Source: an uncultured Erysipelotrichaceae bacterium
Lineage (GTDB): Bacteria; Bacillota_I; Bacilli_A; Erysipelotrichales; Erysipelotrichaceae
DNA: 32,601 nt
Direction of reading: 5' to 3'
Assembly (NCBI GenBank): GCA_902786245.1
Contig: CADABS010000047.1
Location: 1 to 32,601, forward strand
The notes under the pieces were generated by a model. That model was not told where the DNA came from. It saw only the letters and a list, made by a program, of their open reading frames with translations, and searched no databases. Every line of letters starts with the position of its first letter. Within the stretch, counting starts at the first letter, position 1. Position numbers and translations under genes: made by a program. Shown here piece after piece: positions 21,221-23,783 of this stretch.

Positions 21221-21248
21221 AATACACTGCAGTGTGTTTCATTTTTTT
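21219..21248 (+). terminator. Terminator overlapping the membrane protein stop codon
   Basis: GAAATACAC (21219-21227) pairs with GTGTGTTTC (21232-21240) across a four-base loop and is followed by A and seven T residues. The accessory block begins right at the end of this T run. Confidence 0.85.
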
Positions 21249-21272
21249 CTGACAGTAAACAATTCTGGTGAT
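21248..21272 (+). repeat. Terminal inverted repeat, outer left
   Basis: 25 bp starting TCTGACAGTAAACAATTC. It is the exact reverse complement of 23759-23783 at the right end of the complete copy. Confidence 0.9.
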
Positions 21273-21313
21273 AGAACACAACTGAACTATAATGGAATAG
21301 CCAAATATAGAAA

Positions 21314-21390
21314 TACTTAAGCAGCTATCTGGCTCAATGTTTGGCGACATCTCCGGCCGGATGGCTGCTTAAGTAAGCGGAGATGTCATT
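21314..21390 (+). promoter_or_regulatory. Transposase leader with interleaved inverted repeats, copy A
   Basis: Arm A (21314-21332) pairs with A' (21357-21375) as a 19-bp stem with two G-U pairs. Arm B (GACATCTCCG, 21346-21355), in the loop of A:A', pairs with B' (CGGAGATGTC, 21378-21387). B' contains the GGAG ribosome-binding site of the transposase ATG at 21391. The same layout exists in the second copy at 22739-22812. Confidence 0.85.
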
Positions 21391-21435
21391 ATGTCAGCAG
21401 AGAATTCGTTTACTGACCTTGTTTTCAGTTTATCT

Positions 21436-21568
21436 CAGATGCGGCAGAAAGATCAAACGCGGTTCTATATTTGACTATATCGACGGAAAACTGTATTGTG
21501 AGAAATGCAGCAGGGCAAAGCACGACCGGGATCTTCTGGAGCTGTTTGCTTTGCCCGATGATGACTGA
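21436..21568 (+). pseudogene. Truncated C-terminal tail of a zinc-ribbon protein
   Basis: The frame reads RCGRKIKRGSIFDYIDGKLYCEKC and then an acidic end (LLELFALPDDD) with a stop at 21568. CEKC is a complete knuckle, while only one Cys of the expected first knuckle remains, at the first codons after the IS junction. The gene's 5' part has been lost or separated by copy A. An ATG in this frame inside the IS leader (21383) could yield a fusion peptide, but nothing suggests it is functional. The family is not identified. Confidence 0.7.
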
Positions 21569-21590
21569 AACATGAATACAGGAGTTGAAT

Positions 21591-21938
21591 ATGCCCAGAC
21601 AATCGATTTTTGATATGTCCTTTTCCAAAGTGTTTCCCATGCTGGTGCAGAAAGCAGAACGGAAAAACAGAACACGTGCTGAAGTTTATACGGTCACTGA
21701 ATGGCTGACAGGCTATACAGCGGAACAGATCGATGCGGCACTGGAATCGGATATGACATACGGTGTGTTTTTCACGGAAGCACCGGCTTATAACAGCCGG
21801 GCTGAACTGATCAAGGGAAAGATCTGCGGTGTACAGGTGGAAACGATCGAGGATCCCCTGATGAAACAGATCCGCCAGCTCGATAAACTGGTCGATGAGC
21901 TGGCAAAAGGAAGACCGATGGAAAAGATACTGAGATGA
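21591..21938 (+). CDS. DUF2200 family protein
   Basis: A 115-residue soluble protein matching the DUF2200 family closely. Family-typical segments are IFDMSFSKVFPMLVQKAERKNRTRAEV, the ITEWLTGY-like VTEWLTGYTAEQI, and the C-terminal KICGVQVETIEDPLMKQIRQLDKLVDELAKG followed by a PMEKILR end. Function is unknown; the proteins are widespread as single small genes in bacteria. ATG 21591 follows AGGAG; an in-frame TTG two codons upstream is less likely. It overlaps the next gene by four bases (ATGA), starting a run of three coupled genes between the two IS copies. Confidence 0.9.
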   Translation: MPRQSIFDMSFSKVFPMLVQKAERKNRTRAEVYTVTEWLTGYTAEQIDAALESDMTYGVFFTEAPAYNSRAELIKGKICGVQVETIEDPLMKQIRQLDKLVDELAKGRPMEKILR

Positions 21939-22138
21939 AACGGAACACATATATTTTTGTGACTGTCCTGGTCATGCTGGGAATAACACGTATGGCTGTG
22001 CGCATCATAGATGCCACGGCAGGGATCGATGATGATGTTCTGCTGCTGGCGGTGTTCCTTGCGGTCATGAATCTCATATTTGCTTGGATCAGCCGGAAAC
22101 TGTACCGGATCATTGATAAAGGAGCAGAACAGAAATGA
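21935..22138 (+). CDS. Small two-helix membrane protein
   Basis: A 67-residue protein with two hydrophobic helices, about residues 5-23 (TYIFVTVLVMLGITRMAV) and 35-54 (VLLLAVFLAVMNLIFAWI), joined by an acidic turn (DATAGIDDD) and ending in a basic tail. I do not recognise a family. Its ATGA overlaps with both neighbours argue that it is a real gene translated in coupling with the DUF2200 and DUF1801 genes. Confidence 0.75.
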   Translation: MKRNTYIFVTVLVMLGITRMAVRIIDATAGIDDDVLLLAVFLAVMNLIFAWISRKLYRIIDKGAEQK

Positions 22139-22542
22139 AATGGAAATGTCCTAAATGCGGAAGGGAATTCAGCAGGATCGATCAGCAGCACTATTGCGGA
22201 AAACCGGAAACGATCGATGAATATATTGAATCCCAGGATGAACCTGTACAGGAAAAACTGAGAGAAGTCCGTTCGATCATCAGATCTGCGCTTCCGGAAG
22301 CGGAAGAACGGATGTCATGGTCTATGCCTACTTATTGGAGAGGACGCAACCTGATCCATTTTGCGGCATCCAAAAAACATCTTGGAATCTATCCGGGAGG
22401 AGAAGCCACCACGGTGTTTGCGGAAGAACTGAAAGACTATGATGTCAGTAAAGGGACGATCCGACTGCCGTATAACAAAGAACTTCCGGAAGACTTAATC
22501 AGACGTATAGCTGTATGGTGCTGTGAACAGTACAGCAAGTGA
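22135..22542 (+). CDS. DUF1801 domain protein with an N-terminal zinc ribbon
   Basis: A 135-residue protein. Residues 1-22 form a compact metal-binding motif, CPKCGREFSRIDQQHYC, with a CxxC knuckle and a later His/Cys. The rest is a YdhG/DUF1801 domain: TIDEYIESQDEPVQEKLREVRSIIRSALPEAEERMSWSMPTYW, then HFAASKKHLGIYPGG and IRLPYNKELPEDLIRRI. DUF1801 proteins have a frataxin-like fold in known structures, and YdhG has been linked to iron handling in Bacillus; the role here is unproven. It is the last gene of the passenger trio. Confidence 0.88.
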   Translation: MKWKCPKCGREFSRIDQQHYCGKPETIDEYIESQDEPVQEKLREVRSIIRSALPEAEERMSWSMPTYWRGRNLIHFAASKKHLGIYPGGEATTVFAEELKDYDVSKGTIRLPYNKELPEDLIRRIAVWCCEQYSK

Positions 22543-22588
22543 AACGCAGATGTCATAGTGCTGCAAAGCAAATCGAAAATGATCAGAC

Positions 22589-22622
22589 ACGGCAGGAGAT
22601 CATCTCCCGCCGTTTCAATTTG
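22589..22622 (+). terminator. Probable terminator after the passenger genes
   Basis: ACGGCAGGAGA and TCTCCCGCCGT form an 11-bp stem with one A-C mismatch and a three-base loop, followed by TTTCAATTT. The rest of the gap to 22672 shows no gene; it contains an AT-rich GGATATAATAATC stretch of unclear meaning. Confidence 0.7.
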
Positions 22623-22672
22623 TATGGGCAGAGGATATAATAATCATAAAGAAGAACCACCCTGAAAAATAA

Positions 22673-22697
22673 TCTAACAGTAAACAATTCTGTTGAT
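22673..22697 (+). repeat. Terminal inverted repeat, inner left
   Basis: 25 bp starting TCTAACAGTAAACAATTC. It differs from the right-end repeat at two positions, while the outer left repeat of copy A is a perfect match. Confidence 0.88.
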
Positions 22698-22738
22698 AAA
22701 ACTCAACTGGACTATAATGAAATAGCCAAATATAGAAA

Positions 22739-22815
22739 TACTTAAGCAGCCATTCGGCTCTATGTTTGGCGACATCTCCGGCCGGATGGCTGCTTAAGTA
22801 AGCGGAGATGTCATT
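22739..22815 (+). promoter_or_regulatory. Transposase leader with interleaved inverted repeats, copy B
   Basis: Arm A (22739-22757) and A' (22782-22800) form a 19-bp stem with one G-U pair; arm B (22771-22780) and B' (22803-22812) form a perfect 10-bp stem. B' contains GGAG at 22804-22807, the ribosome-binding site of ATG 22816. A TATAAT at 22713-22718 upstream is the probable transposase -10 box, so its transcript would include all four arms. Confidence 0.85.
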
Positions 22816-23756
22816 ATGTCAGCAGAGAATTCGTTTACTGACCTTGTTTTCAGTTTATCTGTCCGTAAGAACAAAGAACAGTACGACGTCACCGATTTTG
22901 AAGAATTGACGATCAAATACGATTGCAAAGCTTCATGTCCAGCATGCGGATCAGTCAATTCTGTATCCGACGGATCAACGCCGGATGGTCTTAAACGGTT
23001 CCGGTGCAAAGACTGTGGCAAGCGGTTTGCCTTATTGAGCAATACAATCTTCCATTCCACCAATAAGAGTTTTGATACATGGGCAGAATATCTGACCCTC
23101 ATGACATTCAATGTACCTCTTGAAATGACAGAAGAACTGTGCGGCATATCTCATCCCACAGCTATGCTGTGGAGGAAGAAAGTATTCGCTGCAGTAAATG
23201 GATACCAGGAACATCTGTACCTGAGAGATCGCATCTGGATTGATGAAACATATCTGTATGACAGTTCTCTGTTCATGAAGATGATTACAAGAAGAAACGA
23301 GGACTATCAGAAGTTCAGTTATGCATTGTTGTAGCTATAGATATTCATAAGAACACCTATGCGGTGATTTGCGGCCATGGAAAGCCCTCTTCTGAACGCA
23401 TCCTTGAAGCTCTGAAGGATCATATTGTTCCGGGATCGACATTAGTACACGATGGCGAACATGCACATAATGCTTTGATCAGAGAACTTAATCTTGTGGA
23501 TGAAGCCTATAAGGCAGACCTCAAAGATAAGAACTATCTTGAGAACATGGCTCTTATCAACAATATGTGTTCCTGGCTTAAGAGATATCTCTACCGTTTC
23601 ATAGGCATGCGGATAGATAGCCTGCAATCATATCTGAACTGGTTTGTATACCTGTTCAGAGTGAAAGGTGCTGCAGAAAGATGGCCGAAGATGAATCGTA
23701 TCTTATGGCATCTGGTATTGACAGACACCACCTATAAACGAGCATCTAAACAGTAA
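22816..23756 (+). pseudogene. IS1595-family transposase, frameshifted
   Basis: The first frame (22816-23268) encodes a zinc ribbon (CPAC...CKDC), a helix-turn-helix region (EMTEELCGISHPTAMLWRKKVF) and the first catalytic Asp in IWIDETYLYD. The frame then shifts at about 23266-23271: from 23271 a second frame continues VHEDDYKKKRGLSEVQLCI and VVAIDIHKNTYAV, reaching the second Asp (STLVHDGEHAHN) and an NNMCSWLKRYLYR motif that fits the DDN/K type. Restoring one base (a T in TCT-CTG) rejoins the frames into a protein of about 313 residues, normal for the family. No slippery heptamer is apparent, so a disabling deletion is the simplest reading. Confidence 0.88.
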
Positions 23757-23758
23757 GC

Positions 23759-23783
23759 ATCACCAGAATTGTTTACTGTCAGA
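23759..23783 (-). repeat. Terminal inverted repeat, right
   Basis: The 25-bp right end of copy B, perfectly inverted relative to the copy A left end at 21248-21272. Confidence 0.9.

Follow-up and report, generated by a model that had tools for sequence, protein, structure and literature searches.

A conserved leader RNA with two predicted, mutually exclusive folds ahead of IS1595-type transposase genes

Does the leader of a transposase mRNA fold in two ways, and could this limit the translation of the transposase? The question is raised by the window, a stretch of 32,601 nucleotides of contig CADABS010000047.1 from an uncultured Erysipelotrichaceae bacterium. A sequence-only reading had described two interleaved inverted repeats over the Shine-Dalgarno (SD) sequence of a transposase gene and proposed that they form a switch. 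As shown in Table 1, the leader of the second copy of the element (22725-22815, from the predicted transcript start to the transposase start codon) contains three interleaved helices 5′ of the transposase, with the arms in the order C-A-C′-B-A′-B′. A:A′ crosses both C:C′ and B:B′, and the latter two lie side by side and are compatible. The gap between A′ and B′ is AG only; since two bases are too short to cross a 20-bp helix, full A:A′ and full B:B′ are mutually exclusive, as had been proposed. The arm coordinates, the spacing, and three arm-A changes opposite G residues also proved correct on recheck, while the two-helix switch itself turned out to be incomplete: A:A′ and B:B′ are both present, but the third helix C:C′ had been missed. 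In every sg1 leader, the predicted -10 box lies 6-7 nt from arm C. With this fixed spacing, arm C is expected at about +1, and the transcript would start there.

Table 1. Features of the leader, the transposase gene, and the ends of the insertion sequence in the window
Feature	Position	Strand	Remarks
Left terminal inverted repeat, second (inner) copy	22673-22697	+	matches the right end, 23759-23783
Predicted -10 box, TATAAT	22713-22718	+	box ends 6 nt 5′ of arm C
Arm C, GCCAAATATAGA	22725-22736	+	pairs with C′, 12 bp; first 12 bases of the predicted transcript
Arm A	22739-22758	+	pairs with A′; 20 pairs, one of them G-U
Arm C′, TCTATGTTTGGC	22759-22770	+	pairs with C; 5′ half of the A:A′ loop
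Arm B, GACATCTCCG	22771-22780	+	3′ half of the A:A′ loop; anti-SD; 10 Watson-Crick pairs with B′
Arm A′	22781-22800	+	pairs with A
Arm B′, CGGAGATGTC	22803-22812	+	contains the SD sequence GGAG, 22804-22807
IS1595-like transposase, N-terminal part (172 aa)	22816-23334	+	broken by a frameshift
Transposase, C-terminal part, other frame	23364-23756	+	homology of that frame begins near 23268
Right terminal inverted repeat	23759-23783	+	matches the left end
Upstream leader copy	21300-21387	+	C 21300-21311, A 21314-21333, C′ 21334-21345, B 21346-21355, A′ 21356-21375, B′ 21378-21387

One insertion sequence is represented in the window by two left ends but only one right end. By the transposase domain of the intact relative L014 (NF033547, 87.4 bits with a cut-off of 75; zinc domain NF050000, 37.2 with a cut-off of 28), the host element is an IS1595-family insertion sequence. 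The two transposase halves of the window score under the full-domain cut-off. Compared with L014, about a dozen codons are missing near the start of the transposase gene of the second copy (22673-23783), and a frameshift lies near 23268. The window transposase is probably inactive in spite of a well-preserved leader. Perfect 8-bp target duplications flank L014, L045, and five 528-bp derivatives, while the flanks of the window copy are alike at one of eight positions at the inner left end and at seven of eight at the outer one (CATTTTTT/CTTTTTTT). The outermost inverted repeats delimit a 2.5-kb unit (21248-23783) with DUF2200 and DUF1801 passenger genes between the two left ends; the moved unit may be a composite. 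The genome of the window has at least four further copies, 80% identical (L003-L006, on contigs C36, C87, C64, and C25), which stop at contig ends inside the leader and are therefore collapsed in the assembly. Another genome, G125, has about a dozen copies of the internally deleted 528-bp derivative (L059, L066, L068, L070, and L072 among them), in which the leader and the N-terminal transposase half are missing and the C-terminal half stays open. A programmed transposase frameshift, prompted by half-length matches in G125, was rejected because those matches are the deletion derivatives.

The upstream leader copy lies 1425 bases 5′ of the inner copy, and its transposase gene is truncated after about 15 codons. 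Arms A′, B, and B′ are identical between the two copies. Arm A differs at 21326/22751 (T/C), 21329/22754 (C/T), and 21330/22755 (T/C), every one opposite G, and a fourth difference (A at 21336, T at 22761) disrupts one C:C′ pair in the truncated upstream copy. The sequence-only reading had taken the pairing-preserving changes in arm A as a sign of selection on the RNA. Two copies make a weak case for this, but homologous leaders elsewhere support it, with compensatory changes in every helix under shuffle and slide controls. In a main set of 16 leaders aligned to a model with A:A′ only, 95.9% of the cells pair, compared with 88.1% after shuffling and 33-40% with the partners slid. Double changes were found at 24 of the 42 pairs (C, 6/12; A, 15/20; B, 3/10), and the shuffle mean was 10.1 with none of 500 shuffles equal or higher, counts that are to be read as support and not as probabilities because the rows are related. 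Arm B is undercounted here since some rows (L081 and its kin) are shifted in that helix; when 23 rows including sg2 were registered by hand, double changes occur at 8/12 (C), 16/20 (A), and 10/10 (B) pairs.

Is it the RNA or the DNA that is constrained? Palindromic arms could bind dimeric proteins, and the covariance model weakly matches the minus strand too, so that the inverted repeats might be operator or transposase-binding sites or cruciforms with RNA folding incidental. However, G-U cells outnumber A-C cells by 62 to 9 over all helices, by 42 to 1 in A:A′, and by 11 to 1 in arms A and C of seven sg3 leaders, an excess that indicates constraint on the sense RNA. Moreover, B′ is tied to the ribosome-binding site, and the perfect target duplications of the leaderless 528-bp derivatives argue that these elements can move without the leader DNA in cis. 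Such a DNA-level role is scarcely credible. Damaged helices were found in copies with broken transposases: L086, L090, and L091 have reading frames of 15, 66, and 21 codons, while the helices are kept in L074, L077, L078, L081, L134, L083, L087, and L113 (322-337 codons). This coincidence of helix decay with a broken transposase was counted for a switch.

The three helices can be combined into two predicted states. In state 1, A:A′ (20 bp) forms alone and the SD sequence is free; in state 2, C:C′ (12 bp) and B:B′ (10 bp) form together and the SD sequence is buried. In most leaders, 0-6 kcal/mol separate the overall minimum from the best fold that lacks A:A′, each of the two lying at about -30 to -44 kcal/mol. 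Larger gaps among complete leaders were found for the truncated upstream copy (9.0), L126 (7.6), L113 (8.0), the broken element L090 (6.6), L167 (11.7), and L174 (5 to 10 by the end chosen). When A and A′ of the window leader were fixed and the rest was dinucleotide-shuffled, none of 200 sequences reached the -40.6 kcal/mol of its fold without A:A′ (mean, -22.6); thus, the arrangement in the window is more than chance. The same shuffle was applied to 15 leaders, and in 13 of these none of the 200 trials came down to the energy of the alternative fold. Although A:A′ ranges from 16 to 25 bp between groups, the folds stay energy-matched. The best predicted fold of the window leader changes with RNA length: C:C′ at 48-68 nt, A:A′ at 72-84 nt, and C:C′ with B:B′ at 88-92 nt. 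With about ten bases added, A:A′ is lower again, and the sign of the energy difference varies with the cut point of the RNA. Sequence comparison and predicted energies therefore support two folds that exclude each other and lie close in energy, one of them burying the SD sequence.

An SD-covering B:B′ is present in sg1, sg2, and sg3, with only 6-7 bp in sg2. In all groups, B′ spans the SD sequence or the bases immediately ahead of the start codon; the SD motif is absent from B′ of L034, L058, and L065. Two further arrangements were noticed at the start codon. In sg2 (L087, L088, L089, L090, L063, L113, and L126), C″ (GCCAGACC) and the anti-SD sequence B″ (AAATTCCTC) lie just after the start codon, inside the coding start, and can pair with C′ and B′, with covariation with C′ in L089 and L090; this pairing can provide a second way of hiding the start region. 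In L083, L134, and L081, the beginning of the transposase gene (TTATGTCTGA) is similar to arm A and able to pair with the 3′ portion of A′, potentially another way of hiding the start codon.

Is this leader common in IS1595 elements? Close relatives were first gathered by transposase searches of the family and the genus. With a covariance model (R1) built from eight leaders and A:A′ as the sole helix, the leader was detected in 19 of the 272 family genomes searched; at the level of the order the figure is 20 of 315, one of these being from another family. Scanning the GTDB collection with a sequence pattern yielded 31 matches, 18 true ones and 13 chance matches without the helices; the true ones are nearly all titled Erysipelotrichaceae or Solobacterium and come from gut samples. 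A second model (R2), built from the diverged group sg2, added further copies such as L148. A third clear group, sg3, was first seen on a plasmid of Tenericutes bacterium MO-XQ. A pattern search for sg3 in 210 genomes of the phylum gave, apart from the genome of the window, five positive genomes, which belong to two other families of the class and often have several identical copies; a reversed control pattern gave no match.

A class-wide search found L157 in another family, with the same topology, few shared letters (TTTGCGAATTGA/TCAATTCGCAAA, CTTAAGCAATCATCAA/TTGATGGTTGCTTAAG, and TTCCTTC/GAAGGAA), and an intact IS1595 transposase downstream. A topology scan 5′ of other IS1595-like genes gave the candidates L017, L019, L034, L058, and L065, directly before the start codon. 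In the shuffle control (n=210; maximum 31, mean 5.7), the maximum was exceeded by L017 (35) and L157 (33), while L019, L034, L058, and L065 (29-31) are not above it. Because they have a B:B′ of 9-10 bp adjoining the start codon, these four likely share the architecture, but this is not certain. The topology recurs before transposases that are 24-33% identical to that of L014, with leader sequences almost unrelated. The architecture was not convincingly present in the copies examined of ISSag10, ISCco2, and ISCaje5, or in those of Collinsella, Niallia, Pontibacillus, and Helicobacter pylori, and the weak match L158 was dropped for the lack of it. Two pattern scans of viral contigs found nothing, and searches of plasmid and phage DNA gave no close copy. 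Thus, the leader is a real and conserved RNA architecture that exceeds the first description in both spread and complexity. It belongs to one section of the IS1595 family, and many elements of this family lack it.

What would such a leader do? Control of translation is strongly suggested by the sequence comparisons, and I consider it probable that the leader acts in cis as an RNA with two states, has no recognisable ligand pocket, and restricts the translation of the IS1595-type transposase. Since A:A′ leaves the SD region largely free and B:B′ buries it, A:A′ is most likely the ON state and C:C′ with B:B′ the OFF state, as judged from the predicted folds. In the proposed mechanism, the mRNA would start at arm C. 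The ON state would be the long A:A′ hairpin with C′ and B in its loop and the SD sequence exposed; the OFF state would consist of the hairpins C:C′ and B:B′, the latter burying the SD sequence. As the arms emerge in transcription, the most stable fold would pass from C:C′ to A:A′ and back to C:C′ with B:B′. The leader would then probably be a kinetic or partitioning switch that gives little transposase per transcript. The simplest reading, drawn by analogy, is that transcripts would partition between the folds as they are made: in the aapA3 type I toxin mRNA, metastable hairpins form successive exclusive folds during transcription, some hiding the SD sequence (PMC6733600). A bolder proposal, offered here as a tentative one, is that the leader is an aptamer-less kinetic RNA timer, widespread in this DDE insertion-sequence group, which would run OFF-ON-OFF on each transcript and allow translation only briefly after synthesis.

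It was considered whether simpler or different roles explain the same data. A static, SD-hiding hairpin could keep translation low as in IS200, with A:A′ and C:C′ as aids to folding or stability and no switching in the cell. Such hairpins are known from IS200 and ISPpu9 (PMC12594629, PMC8450116), and low transposase output alone would favour B:B′. However, this reading leaves A:A′ as the longest and best conserved helix (15/20 double changes), yet incompatible with B:B′, and it does not fit the energy match kept across the range of A:A′ lengths; it is rather unlikely. The fold might instead be picked by a trans-acting factor, namely the transposase itself through autoregulation, a host protein, or an antisense RNA, as an antisense RNA acts on the ISPpu9 leader (PMC8450116). 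Certain motifs are indeed retained as sequence: GCCAAA..TTTGGCGAC in all sg1 and sg3 leaders, across families and despite divergence elsewhere, and TTAAGCAG..CTGCTTAA in sg1 and sg2. Their retention goes beyond what base pairing demands. They are missing, however, in the groups of the same topology L065 and L034, and GCCAAA and TGGCGAC are missing in L157, so that a response element of this kind seems improbable, even more so than static repression.

If a short ORF (MFGDISGRMAA, 22762-22797) were translated, ribosomes passing B and A′ could open the structure as in a leader-peptide attenuator. In most sg1 leaders this ORF starts with ATG, is uninterrupted, and stops within A′, but its start codon is ATT in L084 and missing in all sg2 leaders, its length and stop vary, no good SD sequence lies upstream, and pairing accounts for the conserved letters. 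A conserved, translatable ORF was thus not found, and attenuation of this kind is very improbable. A transcription terminator was rejected because a U-run after A′ or B′ is not consistent across leaders. A separate small RNA acting in trans, for which there is a precedent in the regulatory RNA made from the IS200 tnpA leader (PMC12594629), or a ligand-binding riboswitch, of which two-state leaders are typical, deserves hardly any credence: every intact case found adjoins a transposase start, Rfam gave no family at its gathering score (the best were microRNA models far under threshold), and the leaders of sg1, sg2, sg3, L157, and L065 share no conserved unpaired core, which argues against a ligand. 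The cis-acting two-state RNA thus remains the preferred reading.

Transposase leaders that control translation are already known. The 5′ UTR of IS200 tnpA has one stable stem-loop hiding the ribosome-binding site (PMC12594629). As here, the hairpin lies in the leader of a transposase mRNA; unlike here, the transposase is of the IS200/IS605 type, and the leader is described without a matched alternative fold of three interleaved helices. The structure of the ISPpu9 tnp 5′ UTR likely includes the ribosome-binding site as well, weakening it raises translation, and the RNAs Asr9 and Ssr9 are involved (PMC8450116); in contrast to the leader described here, it is opened by antisense RNA, belongs to a different insertion sequence, and has not been described with a C-A-C′-B-A′-B′ arrangement. 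ISSag10, ISCco2, and ISCaje5 belong to the same transposase family without showing the architecture in the copies examined, and ISSag10 and ISCco2 have a plain GGAGG ahead of the start codon. The hok mRNA, like that of aapA3, passes through successive mutually exclusive folds during transcription. Both are toxin-antitoxin mRNAs under antisense RNA control, while the product here is a transposase and not a toxin; there is no homology, and the likeness is one of working only. A search of the open-access literature gave no report of such a leader for IS1595, and the three-helix, two-state form in this IS1595 clade is new to Rfam and to the papers searched.

Transposase synthesis must stay low, and for many DDE insertion sequences I know of no established means by which this is achieved. 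The leader offers one clade a specific and easily tested answer. To my knowledge, natural energy-matched two-state RNAs without a ligand pocket are uncommon, and the diverged set of leaders is a good test bed for models of co-transcriptional folding. If the timer reading is true, transposition would be tied to fresh transcription at the donor site. The leader suggests that these elements carry a built-in RNA control on how often they jump.
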